Below, in pieces: positions 2,304-23,446 of a stretch of 28,267 bases of DNA. Source of the stretch: a virus; IMG/VR virus record IMGVR_UViG_3300021091_003049, positions 1 through 28,267 of that record. One strand, given 5' to 3'. A model generated the notes under the pieces. That model did not search any database. It was not told the DNA's origin and saw only the letters and a list, made by a program, of their open reading frames with translations. A program made the position numbers and the translations under genes. The number at the start of each line of letters is the position of its first letter. The stretch's first letter is position 1.

Positions 2304-3188
2304 TTACATAAACCTCTTAATGTTTTTATTTAGGGCAAGAATTGCTTTATGATTTTTGATTCTCTCTTTTAAATTACTGGATTCTAAAAAGTGCATACGC
2401 CTCTGATATTCCATAATTTGATTGTTAGCAAAGTCCTCATCATTTGCTGATTCAACCACAATATTCCATCCTTTCATTTTTAAAAAATCTCTATGCACTG
2501 GCACCCACTGACATAATGGAGTGCCTGCTTTAATTAAATATTCACCTGGGTCTAACTTATGCCAGAACAATTGTAAATTAATTTCATACGAATATGATGG
2601 GTCAACAACTCCTGTGGGTGGAGTAAATCTATCTTCATCCCAATATGGAATAGGCATTTGAATAAACACAACATCGGGATGTGCTTGCACTCTCCATGGT
2701 AATTCAAGTTTAATTGTCGTATCTAAAACATCTTTTGTTTGGTCAACTAAATGACGCATACCTTCAGTTTGTTGTGGAATATGTCCTGTTACAAATCGAG
2801 GATTTCCTACTGTGACATTAAATAGTCCTTGAGATAACCACTCAAAATCTATTGCGTTATCACCTATCTTAATTAGAATATCTGCTGGACATGGAAGTAC
2901 ATAACCAGAGTCCATGATTGAAGTTATTGCAGGGCAAGTTACAGCATGACCAGGGGATGGAGGGTTATAATTTTCTCTCCTTAGTTCTGCATTTGCTTTC
3001 TCCCACATATGTTTTACTTTAAGATATGGGCAACGTTTAGATTTATCTGCAGTTAATTTTAATGCATCAGTCCTCCACTTTCTATGAAGTTTTCTTGCTG
3101 GAAACCAAGGTTGTAATTCAGCAACACCAGGGTCAACTGAATAAAACCTAACCCATAGTTTCTTTTTAAAGATATTCATCAGTCCCAT
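2304..3188 (-). CDS. Conserved-looking protein of unknown function next to the halogenase
   Basis: A 294-aa soluble protein that I do not recognise with certainty. It begins with a basic, aromatic stretch (NIFKKKLWVRFYSVDPGVAE). The middle part has Cys-containing segments (AVTCPAITSIMDSGYVLPCP) and beta-rich stretches (ADILIKIGDNAIDFEW, NLQLFWHKLDPGEYLIKAG). After GTPLCQWVPVHRDF it ends in a charged helical region. The central part has the look of a small-molecule-binding beta fold, but no catalytic motif can be named. The ATG at 3188 is chosen because AAGGG lies 9 bases before it. This start overlaps the end of the halogenase gene by 23 bases, and that coupling suggests the two proteins are made together. 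A role as a halogenase partner or substrate-handling protein is inference from position only. Confidence 0.75.
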   Translation of the reverse strand: MGLMNIFKKKLWVRFYSVDPGVAELQPWFPARKLHRKWRTDALKLTADKSKRCPYLKVKHMWEKANAELRRENYNPPSPGHAVTCPAITSIMDSGYVLPCPADILIKIGDNAIDFEWLSQGLFNVTVGNPRFVTGHIPQQTEGMRHLVDQTKDVLDTTIKLELPWRVQAHPDVVFIQMPIPYWDEDRFTPPTGVVDPSYSYEINLQLFWHKLDPGEYLIKAGTPLCQWVPVHRDFLKMKGWNIVVESANDEDFANNQIMEYQRRMHFLESSNLKERIKNHKAILALNKNIKRFM

Positions 3189-4752
3189 AAATGTTATCCC
3201 TTAGATATTCATAGTGTGAAGGAAGTTGTTGTACCCAATTTAACATAACTTCTCTGTCTTGTTGATATTTAGAGTGAGAAATTTCTAACTCTTCTAGATT
3301 AACATTTCTTTCCTTTATTGTAAAGTCTACAATAGGTCTATATCCAAGACCTGCCATGATATATGGAAGTCCATTGTAATTGGAATCATTGTATATATTT
3401 TCTGGATTTAACAAGATATTATAATGTCCAGATGCAGCAATATATGTTGATTGCTTCACCCCAACCTGAGATTTTAAATCAACATGAGTGATTATATCTT
3501 TCCAATATTGAGTATCTTCTCGTTGACTCAATGTGTAATGCATAGCAACAAAGTTTTTCATTGTCTCTAACGCATTGTCAACGATAAAATTAAAACTATC
3601 TCTGTCAATTTTAGACACAAATCCATTTCTACGTTGTAGTATATCACTTAGAAACATGAGATTTTCATGTGTAGTCATCAATCCTGTAGACTCTAATGGT
3701 TCTAAAAATCCGTAAGATAATCCAATACCAACAACATTCTTTACCCATGCTTTTTCATGTTTTCCATGTTTAATACGAATTGGGCGAAGATGTGCAGACT
3801 CAGCAACTTCTGCAGAGTATCTATTTGATAGATATTCTCTAAACTCTCTTTCAGCATCAGCATCTGAAATATATTTACTGCTATAAACATAACCAGTGCC
3901 TACACGATGCCAGAGTGGTATATTCCATATCCAACCAGCATCCATTGCAACACAATCAGTATAAGTTTCCATCTGATTAATCCTATCAGTATATGGAATC
4001 TGAGTTGCTAACGCTCTATCATTGTATAACTGATGATTAAATGATTTAAACTCAACTCCCATGTGTTGCTCTAACAACAACGATTTAAATCCTGTGCAAT
4101 CAATAAACAAATCAGCACTGATTGTATCATTATCTGTTGTGATAATAGAATTAATGGTGCCATCTGGTGTTTTGACAACATTTTCAATATCTCCTTTGAT
4201 ATGTACGACTCCATTGGGAAGAGCAATACTATCTCTCAGAAATTTTCCAAACAAATCAGCATCTAAATGATAGGCAGTATCCCATTCCGAGTCATAATTT
4301 GAATTAGGAATAGTCTCTGCAATTTTACACTCATCTGCGAGATAAGTATTCATATTATAGAAGCGAGCAAACTCTTCTGGAGGATATTGCTCCATTCCAT
4401 ATCTGCTTTGTAGCGCAAAGAAGTCAAATAAATTTCGTTTATAATCATCATTAAGATCCCATTTTCCAAAAGGATACTGAAATCTCTCACCAGTATTTTC
4501 TCTAAAATTTTTAAAAGCAATGGAAGTTTTAAATGTTGCATTACATTTTGACATCCATTCTTCATCACGTAATTCCAAGCGATGAAGAAATCTATTGAAT
4601 TGACCTAGGGTAGATTCTCCAACTCCAATAGGTTTTGTGACATTAGATTCAATTAATGCTATTTCAATGTCTGGAAATGATTTTGACAATAGAGCAGCAG
4701 ACATCCATCCACTACTTCCACCACCAACAATACAAATAGATTCAATTTTCAT
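3166..4752 (-). CDS. Flavin-dependent halogenase (tryptophan-halogenase family)
   Basis: A 528-aa member of the flavin-dependent halogenase family (Trp_halogenase). The FAD-binding motif is at residues 8-15 (IVGGGSSG). It is followed by KPIGVGESTL, a candidate catalytic Lys K75 in CNATFKTSIAF, the diagnostic WxWxIP motif at 274-279 (GWIWNIPLWHR), and the conserved FLEPLESTGL with E351/E354. These enzymes use FADH2, O2 and halide to form HOCl or an equivalent that is passed to the lysine. A family member from a T4-like cyanophage, VirX1, has been characterised as an iodination-preferring halogenase with broad small-molecule substrates, so free tryptophan should not be assumed. A flavin reductase is needed and none is visible here. 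The start codon lies two bases after an intrinsic terminator. It is the first gene of the six-gene run. Confidence 0.93.
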   Translation of the reverse strand: MKIESICIVGGGSSGWMSAALLSKSFPDIEIALIESNVTKPIGVGESTLGQFNRFLHRLELRDEEWMSKCNATFKTSIAFKNFRENTGERFQYPFGKWDLNDDYKRNLFDFFALQSRYGMEQYPPEEFARFYNMNTYLADECKIAETIPNSNYDSEWDTAYHLDADLFGKFLRDSIALPNGVVHIKGDIENVVKTPDGTINSIITTDNDTISADLFIDCTGFKSLLLEQHMGVEFKSFNHQLYNDRALATQIPYTDRINQMETYTDCVAMDAGWIWNIPLWHRVGTGYVYSSKYISDADAEREFREYLSNRYSAEVAESAHLRPIRIKHGKHEKAWVKNVVGIGLSYGFLEPLESTGLMTTHENLMFLSDILQRRNGFVSKIDRDSFNFIVDNALETMKNFVAMHYTLSQREDTQYWKDIITHVDLKSQVGVKQSTYIAASGHYNILLNPENIYNDSNYNGLPYIMAGLGYRPIVDFTIKERNVNLEELEISHSKYQQDREVMLNWVQQLPSHYEYLRDNIYGTDEYL

Positions 4753-5266: not shown

Positions 5267-6076
5267 TCAACCAAAATACTCATATACGACTACAACTCCT
5301 TCACGTCCTCTAGCACCTCTGTTACTATCTCGGGACCCATTACCACCAGCACCCCAAGCTGCATGTGCCTCATGATTATGAGAATAGTTACTATTAGAGT
5401 GAGATGAAGGTTGACTGCCACCCATATAGGATCTTCCTGCAGAATGATTCCCATAGCTGTAGTGAGACCCGTGACCATTTCCACCGCCGCCGAAGACATT
5501 CAAACTACCACCAGACCCATTACCACCCAATCCACCAGCGTGTTGTTGAGAACAATTAGCACCAACACCACCGCCAGCAGAACAATAACCTCCAAATGAG
5601 GAACCATTTCCATTACCGCCACATCCAGAGTAGTTAGTGCCACCTCCAGGGTTACCAACACTAACTCCCACTGAAGAAACATTAGTTACATCGATAACCA
5701 TTTCTGCCATTCCACCAGCGCCACCCGATTCACAATATCCAGATCCACCTCCACCAGCACCAACAACTTGCACTCTAATACTTCTTACACCACTAGGTTT
5801 AGTCCAAGTACCATTGCTAGTGTAAACTTGCATAGATCTAAATCCACTAGCACTAGATACTGGAACCCAAGATAAGTTTGCTCCATCCGTAGTTAAATAT
5901 CTACCACTATTTCCACTTAATGATGGAATAATATATTTAGAAGACCCTGTAATTGTACCATTAATATTGATATTAGTGATTTTTAATGTGCCATGAGATG
6001 TAATTGCTCCTGAAGCAAGATTAAATCCACTGAGACCCTGCTGGTCTTTAATAGATGTAACTCTAAGTATGCTCAT
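5267..6076 (-). CDS. Gly-rich tail fibre or adhesin, tandem copy A
   Basis: A 269-aa virion-type protein and the last transcribed of three tandem paralogues of identical length. Residues 1-80 form a copy-specific N-terminal region that ends in a fibre-like shaft (GRYLTTDGANLSWVPVS). From about residue 85 the conserved head begins with NGTWTKPSGVRSI, then VVGAGGGGSGY, the entry to the Gly-rich domain common in phage tail proteins. The head is about one-third Gly and rich in Ser, Asn and His, and carries four spaced Cys (CES, CGGNGN, YCSAGGG, NCSQQH). It ends SNRGARGREGVVVVYEYFG. Such domains may fold as packed polyglycine helices, as in the T-even gp38 adhesin; that analogy is inference. This copy differs from B and C by having AHAAW instead of SHCAW. 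It has a late promoter and a GGGG ribosome site. Confidence 0.8.
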   Translation of the reverse strand: MSILRVTSIKDQQGLSGFNLASGAITSHGTLKITNININGTITGSSKYIIPSLSGNSGRYLTTDGANLSWVPVSSASGFRSMQVYTSNGTWTKPSGVRSIRVQVVGAGGGGSGYCESGGAGGMAEMVIDVTNVSSVGVSVGNPGGGTNYSGCGGNGNGSSFGGYCSAGGGVGANCSQQHAGGLGGNGSGGSLNVFGGGGNGHGSHYSYGNHSAGRSYMGGSQPSSHSNSNYSHNHEAHAAWGAGGNGSRDSNRGARGREGVVVVYEYFG

Positions 6077-6098
6077 TACACAATCCCCTTCTTAGATA

Positions 6099-6106
6099 TA
6101 TTTATT
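6099..6106 (-). promoter_or_regulatory. Late promoter (AATAAATA) for copy A
   Basis: AATAAATA on the minus strand lies 22 bases before the copy A ATG. It is formed partly by the TAA stop codon of copy B, where the reading GGT TAA TAA ATA contains both stop and promoter. Confidence 0.65.
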
Positions 6107-6914
6107 AACCAAAGTATTCATATACGACTACAACTCCTTCACGTCCTCTAGCACCTCTGTTACCATCTCGGGACCCATTACCACCTGCTCCCCAAGCACA
6201 ATGAGACTCATGACGATGGGAATAATTAGATTGGTTATGTGATGAGGGTTGACTGCCACCCATATAAGATACACCAGCAGTATGATTGCCATAACTATGG
6301 TTAGACCCATGACCATTTCCACCACCACCATAAACGTTTATATTACCACCAGACCCATTACCACCCCATCCACCAGAGTGTTGTTGAGAACAATTAGCAC
6401 CGAGTCCCCCAGATGCTGAGCAATAACCTCCAAATGAAGAAGTATTTCCATTACCACCACATCCAGCATAGTTAGTGCCACCTCCAGGGTTACCAACAGT
6501 GACTGATACCGAAGAAACATTAGTTACGTCAACAATCATTTCTGCCATTCCACCAGCACCAGCAGATTCACAATATCCAGATCCACCTCCACCAGCACCA
6601 ACAACTTGCACACAAATACTTCTTACACCAGTAGGTCTATTCCAAGTGCCATTACCAGTCCAAACTTGCATAGATCTAATGCCAGATGCAGTAGATACTG
6701 TTGCCCACTCTGTATTTGTACCATTAGACATTAAAAATTTTCCAGCATGTCCTGATTGCACTGGAATTAAAAAATTAGATCTTCCTTGGATTTGTCCATT
6801 GATTACAAGGTTTGATACTGTAAGAGTACCTATAGTAGAAACCCCGCCACCAGAGAATGAAAATCCAGTAGCGCCTGTTAAGTCTCTAATTGAAGCAATT
6901 TTAAGTTGTGACAT
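6105..6914 (-). CDS. Gly-rich tail fibre or adhesin, tandem copy B
   Basis: The middle of three tandem 269-aa paralogues. The N-terminal 80 residues (MSQLKIASIRDLTGATG..., GRSNFLIPVQSGHAGK) differ from copies A and C. From NGTWNRPTGVRSI onward it is nearly identical to them. It shares the extra Cys with copy C (ESHCAWGAGGNG) and shares the C-terminal VVVVYEYFG with copy A, so it looks like an intermediate or mosaic of the two. Long stretches of the 3' part are also almost identical to copies A and C at DNA level. It is probably a trimeric fibre tip or short fibre that binds the host surface; the actual receptor is unknown. It has a separate late promoter. Confidence 0.8.
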   Translation of the reverse strand: MSQLKIASIRDLTGATGFSFSGGGVSTIGTLTVSNLVINGQIQGRSNFLIPVQSGHAGKFLMSNGTNTEWATVSTASGIRSMQVWTGNGTWNRPTGVRSICVQVVGAGGGGSGYCESAGAGGMAEMIVDVTNVSSVSVTVGNPGGGTNYAGCGGNGNTSSFGGYCSASGGLGANCSQQHSGGWGGNGSGGNINVYGGGGNGHGSNHSYGNHTAGVSYMGGSQPSSHNQSNYSHRHESHCAWGAGGNGSRDGNRGARGREGVVVVYEYFG

Positions 6915-6931
6915 AAGACTTAATTTTTAGT

Positions 6932-6939
6932 TATTTATT
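6932..6939 (-). promoter_or_regulatory. Late promoter (AATAAATA) for copy B
   Basis: AATAAATA on the minus strand lies 18 bases before the copy B ATG. It overlaps the TAA stop of copy C in the same GGT-TAATAAATA arrangement as the next copy. Confidence 0.65.
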
Positions 6940-7747
6940 AACCAAAGTATTCATGGATATACACAATCCCTTCACGTCCTCTAGCACCTCTGTTACCATC
7001 TCGGGACCCATTACCACCTGCTCCCCAAGCACAATGAGACTGATGATTATGGGAATAATTACTGTTAGAGTGAGATGAAGGTTGGGTACCACCCATATAG
7101 GATGATCCTGCAGTATGATTCCCATAGCTGTAGTGAGACCCATGTCCATTACCACCGCCACCGTAGATATTCAAACTACCACCAGACCCATTACCACCCC
7201 ATCCACCAGAGTGTTGCTGAGAACAATTAGCACCAAGTCCACCACCAGCAGAACAGTAACTTCCAAATGAAGAAGTATTTCCATTACCACCACATCCAGC
7301 GTAGTTGGTACCACCTCCAGGGGTACCAACAGTGACTGATACCGAAGAAACATTAGTTACGTCAACTTGTCTTTGTGCCATTCCACCAGCACCAGCAGAT
7401 TCACAATATCCAGATCCACCTCCACCAGCACCAACAACAGTAACCATAATAGTTCTTACACCAGTAGGTTTATTCCAAGTGCCATTACCAGTAAATGCTT
7501 GAATTGATCTAATGCCAGATGCAGTAGATACTGTTGCATAAGATAAAGTAGACCCGTTGGTAGTTAAAAATCTACCACTATTTCCTGAAGGATTTGGAAG
7601 AATAAAAGCAGAAGATCCTGAGATAGTGCCATCAATAACAATATCAGTGACTGTTAAAGTGCCATTAGCAGTAATGCCACCAGCGGCAAGTGTAAAACCA
7701 CCAAGTCCCTGAAGATCTCTAATAGAACCGAGTTTTAGCTGAGACAT
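6938..7747 (-). CDS. Gly-rich tail fibre or adhesin, tandem copy C
   Basis: The first transcribed of the three 269-aa paralogues. The N-terminal 80 residues are copy-specific (SGSSAFILPNPSGNSGRFL), then the shared Gly-rich head starts at NGTWNKPTGVRTI. It has the same Cys positions as copy B, including QSHCAW. Its last residues differ (GREGIVYIHEYFG instead of GREGVVVVYEYFG), and the DNA next to the stop also diverges from A and B over about 20 bases. It has a late promoter (CATAAATA) just upstream. The 111-codon frame and the 299-aa fibre gene lie immediately before it, making one fibre-tip neighbourhood. Confidence 0.8.
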   Translation of the reverse strand: MSQLKLGSIRDLQGLGGFTLAAGGITANGTLTVTDIVIDGTISGSSAFILPNPSGNSGRFLTTNGSTLSYATVSTASGIRSIQAFTGNGTWNKPTGVRTIMVTVVGAGGGGSGYCESAGAGGMAQRQVDVTNVSSVSVTVGTPGGGTNYAGCGGNGNTSSFGSYCSAGGGLGANCSQQHSGGWGGNGSGGSLNIYGGGGNGHGSHYSYGNHTAGSSYMGGTQPSSHSNSNYSHNHQSHCAWGAGGNGSRDGNRGARGREGIVYIHEYFG

Positions 7748-18881: not shown

Positions 18882-18910
18882 ATTCTAAGTTATATATGAT
18901 ATTTTGTCAA
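18882..18910 (-). promoter_or_regulatory. Sigma70-type promoter for the small-gene block
   Basis: Minus strand TTGACA (18910-18905), a 17-base spacer, then TAGAAT (18887-18882): 11 of 12 consensus positions. The first T of the -35 is the discriminator base of tRNA-Gly. The predicted start is near 18875, 17 bases before the ATG at 18858. Confidence 0.75.
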
Positions 18911-19907: not shown

Positions 19908-19967
19908 GACCTCATCTAGTATAGCATCAGTTGAGCAGTAATGGCAAGCCGAAAACCTGATGAGGTC
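19908..19967. promoter_or_regulatory. 9-bp inverted repeat around the promoter after gp5
   Basis: GACCTCATC (19908-19916) and GATGAGGTC (19959-19967) form a perfect inverted repeat with 42 bases between. It encloses both the -10 and -35 boxes of the promoter at 19918-19947 and the stop of gp5. It could be an operator pair or a long-range stem. A second short pair, CATCAG/CTGATG, lies inside. Confidence 0.35.
19918..19947 (-). promoter_or_regulatory. Sigma70-type promoter after gp5
   Basis: Minus strand TTGCCA (19947-19942), an 18-base spacer, then TATACT (19923-19918): 10 of 12 consensus positions. It overlaps the end of gp5. It would drive the 63-, 83- and 95-aa genes and tRNA-Leu. Confidence 0.6.
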
Positions 19968-22674
19968 CAAGACCGCAACCTGTTGACATAAACCCAGTGC
20001 CTAAGGTGGTCGATAAAAGTCCCGTAACCACAGTAGTTATATTAGCACCATTTGTAACAAACTCAGAAATAACTCCTGTTGGAGAAAGAACAAAGGTAGA
20101 GTGAATACCACTTGACCCGCCTATTAATAGGTCATTCATCGAAGCTGGCATTACATTACCAATACAAACACGAGTTTGGTTTGGTGGAGCAACACTTGGG
20201 AATGGAATATCCATAGTAACATCGAGGATTGCTCCTCTAACAATATTAAATTGCCCTGTGATTGCAGCAAATGGGTTAAAAACAGCAATAGTTTCGATGC
20301 GTCCAGCATTTAAGAATGAGCTAATCCAGTTTGCCTCATTAACAATTTCACCATCAGCAACGTTTTCAATAGTGCTTGCTTCAGTCCTAACGGTTTGAGA
20401 GTTGATATTAACTGCCTCAATACCAGTGATTTTTACTTTCGATCCTTGGATTCTAATTTCACCAGTATATGAAATGTCTTTATCGCCTTCTAATCTCTCT
20501 CCTGTTTTTTGTTCTTTGTCATCTTTTAATTTAGCAGATAATTGAGGACCATGTGGTGTGCGTCCATATTCATCTGCATCTGGAGCATATGGAATTTCAG
20601 ATACTGGATAGAATCCACCATACCGATTACTCCACTTTAAGAATGTTTCTCTACCTTCTTTTTTGGACAATACTGTTTCACGATTATCATAAAGTGTCCC
20701 CATCGCCAACGCAATCCCTTCATTATTGGCTTGCTGTGTGTTGGCTGCATTCGCTTCTGCCTTAGACCCTGCCGATGTGCTTGTATATGGGTCAGAGTAT
20801 TTACCAAGTTTTCCACCACTACTAGTCACAGGACTTGTAGAACTAGTTTCTTTACCGTAACTACCACCAGGTTTCTTTGATGTGCCACTAGATTCTGCTT
20901 GTGGTCCATTAGAATTATGTTTATTATTTGAGCCTGTAATTTCTTCATGGTAATTACCCATGACCTTAAGATAAAAATCACCCTCTACAGTCAATACATA
21001 GTTTCCTTTGATAGTCTCACATTTGTCCTTAGCAATAATCTTTGTCTCATTATTGGGCACATTCTTATGCTCATTGCCCCAACCATCTTGGAATGTAGTA
21101 ACTCCACCTGGACCCATTTTAATACTTTTTTCAACACCAGGAGTAGCATCATGAAGTTCTTTAGATCCATTCAAGAATGTTTGGGTTTGCATCAAGAGTG
21201 GATTAATTTTGGTGAACATTTCATCGATAAATGACCCCCCACCAGATATACCACCATTGTTTTTATAACTTTCATATGAAGAGTATGGGCTACCTGCAAC
21301 AGCCTCAGATAATATCTCGCATTCCGTGGTGCCAATAAGTGGCCACCACGCATTCATCTTCGGTCGTTTTATCTTCCTCCCACAGTCTCGTTGAAAGAGT
21401 AATCCAAGAATCATTTTGATAAGAGCAATCAAAGATCCCCAATTCAATTTGGTAAAATCAAATTTCATTATCATGTCAACTGTCTTACCAATCTGTCCAG
21501 CAGCCGAAGCAAGTGCTTTGGCAGTCTTAACTGCTGCCAGAATACTATTAGCAACGTCACGAATTTTATTCATGGTATTAGTAATACCATTCAGAATACG
21601 ATTAGTAACACCACTAACAGCTTCAGAAATAATACTTGCAACTTTATCAACAATCATAGATGCCATCTGGTTGGCAAAATTTACTGTATCTAATATTGCT
21701 CCTTGTACTAGTCCCAACCACGCTGGTTTCTTAGCACAGAAAATTTCAAAGATTGTGTCTAGTAAACTTAAAATTGCTGTGATAACACCCAAAGGAATAA
21801 AATTACTAATAATCTTTACCAAAACCAAAATGACCTGAGCAATTACTTTGGCAAGCATTTCTTTTAATGGTGCAAGAATACCAGAAATACCACCTGCTAA
21901 GAAACTAACAATCTTACCAAGATGCTCTTTTACTTTATCACCTGCAATTTTATTACCAGTAATAAGTGATACCCAGGCGCCTGGACCTTCACCTAAAGCT
22001 GCAGCCATTTGACCTAGTTCGGTAAGCATACGCTGCAAGTCTGTTTCAAATCCGCTACCAGCAGGTCCTGCTACACCATCACCAATTGATTGTTTTTCAA
22101 CGGGTGGTTTCATTGGATTAGTCACTGCATTACCAGGGACAGTTTCTTCTCCTATTGAAATAGCACCTCTTGATTGCTCGGGTGCGCCACTAGGATCAGC
22201 TGGTGTTGACGACTGTTGTTTAGTAAATGGATTGCCAGCAAATTTATCTTTCCCAGACATGTCATCTTGCTGGGGTGTATTAGTCTTTAATTCATTAGCA
22301 GGTTTACCATCGGCAATGGTGGTACGCTTATCATCTTTTTTCTGTTGGAATCCGCGGAACGACCCTAAAACAATAGGAAGTTGAGCCTCATCTCCATCTA
22401 AGAAAAATCCTAATACCCAAGCACCAGGTTGCAATTCTGTAGTAGTGCCAGCATTCTTAGTGCCAGGTTGGTCTGCAGGAAGTAATACGTTTGCCCATGG
22501 TAAATCTTTTGTTGGGATAACTTTAGTATATGCTTCTTTTTTCTTATGACCAGTATACCAACCTAAAATACGTACTTGTACTCGACCCAATCCAGATGGG
22601 TCTTTGATTCCCTCAACTTCACCAATCCACCAGGTGTATCCATCTCTTCCTAAGTAATCAGTACGCTCTCTCAT
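19927..22674 (-). CDS. 5: gp5-like baseplate hub and tail spike protein
   Basis: A 915-aa protein. Residues of about 5-110 are a gp5/VgrG-type OB-fold (GYTWWIGEVEGIKDPSGLGR, VQVRILGWYTG, then LPWANVLLP, QPGAWVLGFFLDGDEAQLPI, VLGSFRG), the hub-binding domain of T4 gp5. Residues of about 240-430 are strongly hydrophobic and helical (LAPLKEMLAKVIAQVILVLV and beyond). The C-terminal third contains beta-helix-like spike segments (ETIKGNYVLTVEGDFYLKVM, GNYHEEITG). T4 gp5 carries a lysozyme domain between OB-fold and spike; I see no lysozyme motif here, only the hydrophobic region. A late promoter and AAGGAT precede the ATG. Confidence 0.85.
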   Translation of the reverse strand: MRERTDYLGRDGYTWWIGEVEGIKDPSGLGRVQVRILGWYTGHKKKEAYTKVIPTKDLPWANVLLPADQPGTKNAGTTTELQPGAWVLGFFLDGDEAQLPIVLGSFRGFQQKKDDKRTTIADGKPANELKTNTPQQDDMSGKDKFAGNPFTKQQSSTPADPSGAPEQSRGAISIGEETVPGNAVTNPMKPPVEKQSIGDGVAGPAGSGFETDLQRMLTELGQMAAALGEGPGAWVSLITGNKIAGDKVKEHLGKIVSFLAGGISGILAPLKEMLAKVIAQVILVLVKIISNFIPLGVITAILSLLDTIFEIFCAKKPAWLGLVQGAILDTVNFANQMASMIVDKVASIISEAVSGVTNRILNGITNTMNKIRDVANSILAAVKTAKALASAAGQIGKTVDMIMKFDFTKLNWGSLIALIKMILGLLFQRDCGRKIKRPKMNAWWPLIGTTECEILSEAVAGSPYSSYESYKNNGGISGGGSFIDEMFTKINPLLMQTQTFLNGSKELHDATPGVEKSIKMGPGGVTTFQDGWGNEHKNVPNNETKIIAKDKCETIKGNYVLTVEGDFYLKVMGNYHEEITGSNNKHNSNGPQAESSGTSKKPGGSYGKETSSTSPVTSSGGKLGKYSDPYTSTSAGSKAEANAANTQQANNEGIALAMGTLYDNRETVLSKKEGRETFLKWSNRYGGFYPVSEIPYAPDADEYGRTPHGPQLSAKLKDDKEQKTGERLEGDKDISYTGEIRIQGSKVKITGIEAVNINSQTVRTEASTIENVADGEIVNEANWISSFLNAGRIETIAVFNPFAAITGQFNIVRGAILDVTMDIPFPSVAPPNQTRVCIGNVMPASMNDLLIGGSSGIHSTFVLSPTGVISEFVTNGANITTVVTGLLSTTLGTGFMSTGCGLGPHQVFGLPLLLN

Positions 22675-22695: not shown

Positions 22696-23157
22696 TTATT
22701 TATCAAGTCGTTTAAAAATAAATTCTCCCTCTTCTGGTTTTTTACCCCAAAGAAAATCTCCTGTTTCTAAATTATAACCACTATCTAATGACCTATATTC
22801 AATTCCATTGAATCTTGAAGTAGACACTAGTCTAGTATTTTTATGCACACATTCTCCCTTGATATGTCCATTCCACCATTCTCCATCCCATTTGTAAATA
22901 TATGGACATGTCGGCGTATTATCTAATAAATTAAATGTCTCAAATACTATACACTTATCGGACATTTTTTGCCAAGTATGACGAGTATGTCTATATGGAT
23001 TATCTTCACCACGATACTTATACCATGATTTACTTTCAATAGTGTTGTAACCCGTTACAGTCCACGTAATATCAATCTGTGGCCATTTTACAGGATTACT
23101 AAATGCTTGCATTTTATTTCTATAATGTCCCTCTAACAAAAGCTCAAAGTTATTCAT
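22696..23157 (-). CDS. cpeT: CpeT-like phycobiliprotein lyase (auxiliary metabolic gene)
   Basis: A 153-aa protein matching the CpcT/CpeT lyase pattern from end to end: EGHYRNKMQAFSNP at 9-22 (family G-x-(Y/F)-(S/R)-N-x-x-QA-x-x-(N/D)P), NPYRHTRHTW at 53-62 (family PYRQR), a Cys at 84 and at 103 in GHIKGECVHKNTR, SLDSGYNLETGDFLWG at 123-138 (D-x-G...E...(V/L)WG), and EGEFIFKRL at the end (GPFEF-x-R). Cyanobacterial CpeT attaches bilins to phycobiliproteins. Cyanophages carry a shorter version (PhiCpeT), and this length fits. The ATG at 23157 is preferred over a GTG at 23169. It lies between CP12 and gp5, with a perfect consensus sigma70 promoter upstream. Confidence 0.8.
   Translation of the reverse strand: MNNFELLLEGHYRNKMQAFSNPVKWPQIDITWTVTGYNTIESKSWYKYRGEDNPYRHTRHTWQKMSDKCIVFETFNLLDNTPTCPYIYKWDGEWWNGHIKGECVHKNTRLVSTSRFNGIEYRSLDSGYNLETGDFLWGKKPEEGEFIFKRLDK
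22697..22704 (-). promoter_or_regulatory. Late promoter (GATAAATA) for gp5
   Basis: GATAAATA on the minus strand lies 22 bases before the gp5 ATG and overlaps the last codons and TAA stop of cpeT (GAT AAA TAA). It is followed by AAGGAT as ribosome site. Confidence 0.65.
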
Positions 23158-23176
23158 TGCAATCCACACAAGGTTG

Positions 23177-23205
23177 ATTATAACTATTTACCAATATTAT
23201 GTCAA
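23177..23205 (-). promoter_or_regulatory. Perfect consensus sigma70 promoter for cpeT
   Basis: Minus strand TTGACA (23205-23200), a 17-base spacer, then TATAAT (23182-23177): all 12 consensus bases at ideal spacing. The predicted start is near 23170, giving a leader of about 13 bases before the cpeT ATG. Host RNA polymerase should read this early in infection. Confidence 0.85.
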
Positions 23206-23207
23206 GC

Positions 23208-23417
23208 TTAGACATCGTACTTTTTACATTCAACCGCATCTGGATGTCCATCACAAAATAATTCTAATGGTGTTGGGTCGTGGACATCTTCTGGATGTCT
23301 AATATGATACGCTTCAAGTTGCTCTAACTCTTCCTCTGTATGGCGACGTTGCTGTGGAGATGTGGTTGGGTCGTCAAGAACTTTTTTATCTAATGCTATA
23401 TGCTGATTGATGTCCAT
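23208..23417 (-). CDS. cp12: CP12-like Calvin-cycle inhibitor (auxiliary metabolic gene)
   Basis: A 69-aa protein. The C-terminal 20 residues, PLELFCDGHPDAVECKKYDV, match the CP12 C-terminal motif (L-E-x-(F/Y)-CD-x-(N/H)P-(D/E)-x-x-EC-x-x-YD) with the redox Cys pair C55 and C64 at the family spacing. The N-terminal part (MDINQHIALDKKVLDDPTTS, PQQRRHTEEELEQLEAYH) is helical and lacks the N-terminal Cys pair of plant-type CP12. CP12 binds GAPDH and PRK and shuts down the Calvin cycle; cyanophages carry it to favour the pentose phosphate pathway and NADPH for nucleotide synthesis. It has its own late promoter. It could also be a non-CP12 protein with a similar tail, but the Cys motif is specific. 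Confidence 0.8.
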   Translation of the reverse strand: MDINQHIALDKKVLDDPTTSPQQRRHTEEELEQLEAYHIRHPEDVHDPTPLELFCDGHPDAVECKKYDV

Positions 23418-23438: not shown

Positions 23439-23446
23439 TATTTATC
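23439..23446 (-). promoter_or_regulatory. Late promoter (GATAAATA) for cp12
   Basis: GATAAATA on the minus strand lies 21 bases before the cp12 ATG and directly after the TAA of the hub gene. Confidence 0.65.

Follow-up and report, generated by a model that had tools for sequence, protein, structure and literature searches.

The cp12-cpeT locus

The window analysed here is a viral DNA fragment of 28,267 nt (IMG/VR record IMGVR_UViG_3300021091_003049). On its minus strand, a gene for a CpeT/CpcT-family protein is situated between a CP12-domain gene and a gp5-like gene, with the following features:

23439..23446, minus strand: late-type promoter GATAAATA ahead of cp12
23208..23417, minus strand: cp12, CP12-domain protein of 69 aa (PF02672, E = 2.3e-10), its stop codon abutting the -35 box
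23200..23205, minus strand: -35 hexamer TTGACA, beginning 2 nt past the cp12 stop codon (TAA, 23210..23208; offset -2)
23183..23199, minus strand: 17-nt spacer TAATATTGGTAAATAGT, different in the relatives save for A/T-richness close to the -10 box
23177..23182, minus strand: -10 hexamer TATAAT, exact match
23161..23175, minus strand: start-site dyad AACCTTGTGTGGATT, differing from AACnnTGTnnGGGTT only at position 13 (A for G)
22696..23157, minus strand: cpeT, CpeT/CpcT-family protein of 153 aa (ATG at 23157, end at 22696)
22697..22704, minus strand: late-type promoter GATAAATA ahead of gp5, overlapping the cpeT stop codon (GAT AAA TAA)
19927..22674, minus strand: gp5-like baseplate hub / tail lysozyme (Gp5_OB, E = 1.2e-5, and synteny)

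The cpeT product matched Pfam CpeT (PF06206, E = 7e-11) and PHROG 488, 'CpeT-like antenna protein' (E = 1.6e-37). The same order of genes (tail protein, CP12, cpeT, gp5), interrupted here and there by further genes, is found in nine cyanophages (S-WAM1, S-SZBM1, P-RSM6, P-TIM40, S-SSM5, P-RSM4, WH25-B, S-MbCM6 and Syn33). A preliminary description of this DNA had assigned late promoters to cp12 and gp5, and a GATAAATA box indeed precedes each of them; the published late-promoter consensus is NATAAATA (PMC2984593). The gp5 box is present too in the related loci L003, L004, L013, L015 and L021. In L003 and L004 it is retained despite a different reading frame. Among the three genes, a host-type promoter stands on cpeT alone.

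This promoter, TTGACATAATATTGGTAAATAGTTATAAT (23205..23177, minus strand), reads TTGACA-17-TATAAT without mismatch directly ahead of cpeT, just as first described, and its spacer of 17 nt falls within the 16-18 nt of sigma70/SigA promoters. A NATAAATA box of the T4 late type is missing there, and a T4 MotA middle promoter is not present either, the -35 position being filled by a perfect TTGACA. The exact pattern occurs once in the whole window, against about 0.01 expected (mean of 100 shuffles). A separate simulation gave 0.017 expected versus 1 observed for 12/12 matches, and 0.48 versus 2 for 11/12 matches. The earlier view of such a sequence as a rarity in any genome is true of hosts, with no exact match in two picocyanobacterial single-cell assemblies and one in a third, on a contig already judged phage-derived, but not of T4-like cyanophages: each of nine complete isolate genomes contained 1-7 exact matches (reversed-pattern control, 0), some of them within coding sequence, e.g., in S-SZBM1 cpeT.

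Conservation and position of the promoter

A near-identity DNA search of the phage collection with this locus found nothing. Loci were compared that had been gathered from IMG/VR by CpeT protein similarity, blind to the promoter (n = 24). TTGACA-17-TATAAT stands directly ahead of cpeT in 16 of them, so the promoter is conserved alongside cpeT in other phages, a point that the preliminary description had left for checking. In the remaining eight, where CP12 and cpeT are separated by other genes, the fetched stretch contained no exact promoter. Across six non-redundant cpeT loci the two hexamers do not vary at all (100 % identity), against a mean pairwise identity of 0.50 in the spacer; by phylogenetic footprinting the hexamers are thus under selection. 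The promoter is missing at the CP12-cpeT island of P-RSM6 and P-SSM4, and at that of P-TIM40 there is no more than TTGACA-17-TAGAAT, with no clear dyad.

At most resolved island sites the -35 box lies within -2 to +4 nt of the CP12 stop codon, the TGA of which is often contained in TTGACA. This holds irrespective of whether cpeT or, as in S-WAM1 and S-SZBM1, a 2OG-oxygenase gene follows; in S-SSM5, WH25-B and P-RSM4 a promoter stands ahead of CP12 instead. Judged by these positions, what the promoter goes with is the CP12 boundary, not cpeT. The idea that it is dedicated to cpeT was rejected on the same grounds, the -35 position being unchanged where the oxygenase gene comes next.

A phage promoter class with a start-site dyad

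The sequence (C)AACCnTGTnnGGGTTG is common to the relatives downstream of their -10 box. On sequence comparison the cpeT promoter falls into a phage-specific class whose consensus is TTGACA-N17-TAnAAT-(C)AACnCTGTnAGGGTT, in which AACnCTGTnAGGGTT is a 15-bp dyad after the -10 box, centred at about +1; the members carry AACnnTGTnnGGGTT 0-1 nt past the -10 box, and the window copy AACCTTGTGTGGATT does so with its single mismatch. The preliminary description had not noticed this recurrence of the promoter in phages, nor the conservation of the dyad at its start site. Three observations led us to take the dyad as more than a coincidence. When TANAAT-N0-2-AACNNTGT was searched in 19 records with no -35 element in the pattern, 23 of the 30 matches listed had a perfect TTGACA 17-18 nt upstream. 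The dyad alone, AACNNTGTNNGGGTT, gave 18 sites in 17 phage records against one for the reversed control, and at all 18 a sigma70 promoter of 11-12/12 ended 0-1 nt upstream. Finally, the GTT end of the dyad, which no search pattern for viral contigs demanded, is conserved to 86-93 % among the 146 non-redundant sites listed. In the published accounts of T4-like cyanophage promoters that we read, we found no description of the dyad; those on antisense transcription or promoter motifs at gp55 likewise had nothing about this class. We regard the class as new only provisionally.

At least 243 sites were obtained from IMG/VR in three scans, the patterns of which required the hexamers and part of the dyad. 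With these demands and a limited listing, the following counts give minimum numbers and should not be read as proportions of all phages:

Beside gp55, facing away: at least 145 of at least 243 sites
Antisense, at the 3' end of a giant virion gene: at least 40 of at least 243 sites
CP12-cpeT island, sense: at least 32 of at least 243 sites
Ahead of small genes preceding a baseplate-wedge gene: at least 5 of at least 243 sites
Other: at least 21 of at least 243 sites

The layout at gp55 was read from relatives, as the window is a 28-kb fragment that does not include its own gp55 locus. A copy in Syn9 (NC_008296.2, 123690-123770) and those in L387-L392 are examples. An opposing promoter of at least 10/12 points into gp55 at 86 of the 91 non-redundant gp55 sites listed (shuffled, 5 %), and one of at least 11/12 at 78 % of them (shuffled, 0.3 %). 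These 86 pairs either overlap or abut; 44 of them use the same DNA as -35 element for both promoters, and in others the -35 box of the gp55 promoter lies in the spacer of its partner or just beyond. Isolates have the same layout, and in Syn9, S-SSM5 and P-RSM4 the gp55 promoter is perfect. Among the matches listed, no opposing promoter of at least 11/12 was found at island or virion sites. The virion-gene copies (L114, 4606-4647, minus strand; also L087, L071 and about 37 more loci) had neither an opposing promoter, again among the matches listed, nor a common terminator behind them. A search for intrinsic terminators common to the DNA behind the gp55-facing and the virion copies showed no enrichment over upstream controls, and Rfam returned only tRNAs for the window and the antisense loci. 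We know of no transcript from the antisense copies of the class.

The gene beside gp55 bears the name 'methylamine utilization' in several cyanophages (L125, 4714-5133; Syn33; and orthologues). Its product matches the Sm-like family PF16243 with E = 1.7e-44, and the name is therefore probably misleading.

Function of the dyad

The spacing of the elements predicts a transcription start at about 23169-23170, within the dyad, and hence a leader of about 13 nt ahead of the cpeT ATG. The dyad probably serves as an operator through which initiation would be controlled by a protein of phage or host. It might instead act in the RNA, as a leader hairpin or through stability or ribosome access, or else in promoter escape, a reading that we consider rather unlikely. 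The spacing of the half-sites differs by 1 nt among the relatives (CAACACTGTCAGGGTTG versus CAACACTGTCCAGGGTTG), a variation that a rigid operator would seldom show and that speaks against one, and AAGGG could double as a ribosome-binding site ahead of cpeT. On the other hand, TATAAT ends 0-1 nt upstream of the dyad, so that the first half-site would precede the expected start and be absent from the RNA, which favours a DNA operator. The gp55-facing copies, moreover, have no conserved small open reading frame behind them (median longest ORF, 34 aa).

Predicted transcription of cpeT

The best explanation of the locus, to which we assign a probability of roughly 0.7, is a host-type phage promoter of the dyad class, from which cpeT would be read independently of the late structural operon driven by gp55. 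Homologues of alt, modA, modB, motA and asiA are absent from cyanomyoviruses (PMC2984593); with none of these polymerase-modifying functions of T4, promoters of this kind should be read by the host enzyme. The unmodified host RNA polymerase with its housekeeping sigma factor (sigma70/SigA) would thus initiate at the cpeT promoter, and cpeT would be transcribed separately from the surrounding late genes. A phage or host protein bound at the dyad would control this initiation and place cpeT under common regulation with the other copies of the class. Transcription from this site is a prediction from the DNA, and its timing would be middle rather than immediate-early.

The preliminary description had favoured a plain immediate-early promoter dedicated to cpeT, read by unmodified host polymerase for a product needed at once. 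The perfect consensus, the missing polymerase-modifying genes and the late promoters on the neighbouring genes are all in keeping with it; we nevertheless hold it improbable, since the promoter is bound to the CP12 boundary instead of to cpeT and the timing data of related phages point elsewhere. The auxiliary metabolic genes of P-HM2 all belong to the middle cluster, although cpeT is not named there (PMC5082946). The P-HM2 genome carries a cpeT, and with its auxiliary metabolic genes exclusively middle, 'immediate early' is not established for this gene. In the transcriptomes of Syn9 and P-TIM40, host-like promoters are reportedly those of middle genes, while a novel element is said to drive the early ones.

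The other origin suggested at first, an acquisition of cpeT from a host along with its own promoter, did not stand up. The cpeT family is host-derived, but host cpeT is a member of the cpeESTR operon (PMC3037559), and in two picocyanobacterial single-cell genomes it starts 9 and 15 nt past the stop codon of the upstream gene, which leaves no room for such a promoter. The extended class was met in cellular genomes on four contigs only, all judged phage-derived: one carries cpeT- and oxygenase-like genes, another a uvsW fragment, and the other two (one from a MAG, one from a single-cell assembly) were judged from context only. Together with the position at the CP12 boundary and the lack of an exact match in the two host assemblies, the host gene spacing makes a capture of this kind very improbable. 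A chance match to the consensus, for which the exact matches inside coding genes could be quoted, is practically negligible and was ruled out by the low expectation in the window and by hexamers kept while the spacer drifted.

A candidate for the late switch

Returning to the dyad-class promoter as the preferred reading, its arrangement at gp55 would have consequences beyond cpeT. Where the opposed promoters overlap or abut, often with common -35 DNA, only one of the two would be open to polymerase at any moment. Such mutual exclusion would allow control at the dyad to tip the balance toward late transcription: with the dyad copy repressed, gp55 and with it the late genes would be favoured. 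As a tentative proposal, possible but doubtful, T4-like cyanophages may have a hitherto undescribed regulon, in which a regulator at the start-site operator controls the CP12-cpeT island as well as antisense transcription, and times the late switch by freeing the gp55 promoter. How cyanomyoviruses set early, middle and late timing without MotA, AsiA and polymerase-modifying enzymes has been described as unclear (PMC2984593). A class with a fixed dyad, located at the promoter of the late sigma factor and at a metabolic island, is a specific and testable candidate for this timing, and the expression of cpeT would join a named regulatory group instead of being an isolated oddity.

Comparison with known promoters

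The sigma70-type early promoters predicted in S-PM2 and Syn9 (PMC2984593, PMC3037559) likewise have TTGACA and TATAAT about 17 nt apart and use the host polymerase; the class described here adds a conserved dyad directly after the -10 box and is restricted in its locations, antisense ones included. T4 early promoters resemble it as near-consensus sigma70 promoters. The host-like promoters that Doron 2016 is said to describe in T4-like cyanophages are probably of the same timing class as that of cpeT. Strict dyad matches numbered none in P-TIM40 and one in Syn9, and the dyad class is therefore unlikely to be the general early element reported from these two phages. An opposed, mutually exclusive pair is a familiar switch layout among overlapping divergent phage promoters, but in the present case the dyad belongs to one partner, and its counterpart serves gp55, the gene of the late sigma factor. 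An antisense RNA has been described before from a T4-like cyanophage, the CfrI RNA of S-PM2 (PMC2984593, PMC5931967); CfrI is located at psbA, whereas the antisense transcription predicted here from promoters faces the 3' ends of Sm-like/uvsW genes and of the giant virion gene.

Other features of the window

A second near-perfect promoter, TTGACA-17-TAGAAT (11/12; 18910..18882, minus strand), lacks the dyad; it starts precisely at the 3' terminus of a tRNA gene and precedes a 66-aa ORF. Three glycine-rich ORFs in a row (5267-7747, minus strand), each exactly 269 aa long, look like tandem paralogues. A 528-aa ORF (3166-4752, minus strand) resembles, from the appearance of its sequence, a tryptophan halogenase; two halogenases are annotated in the tail-fibre region of Syn9.
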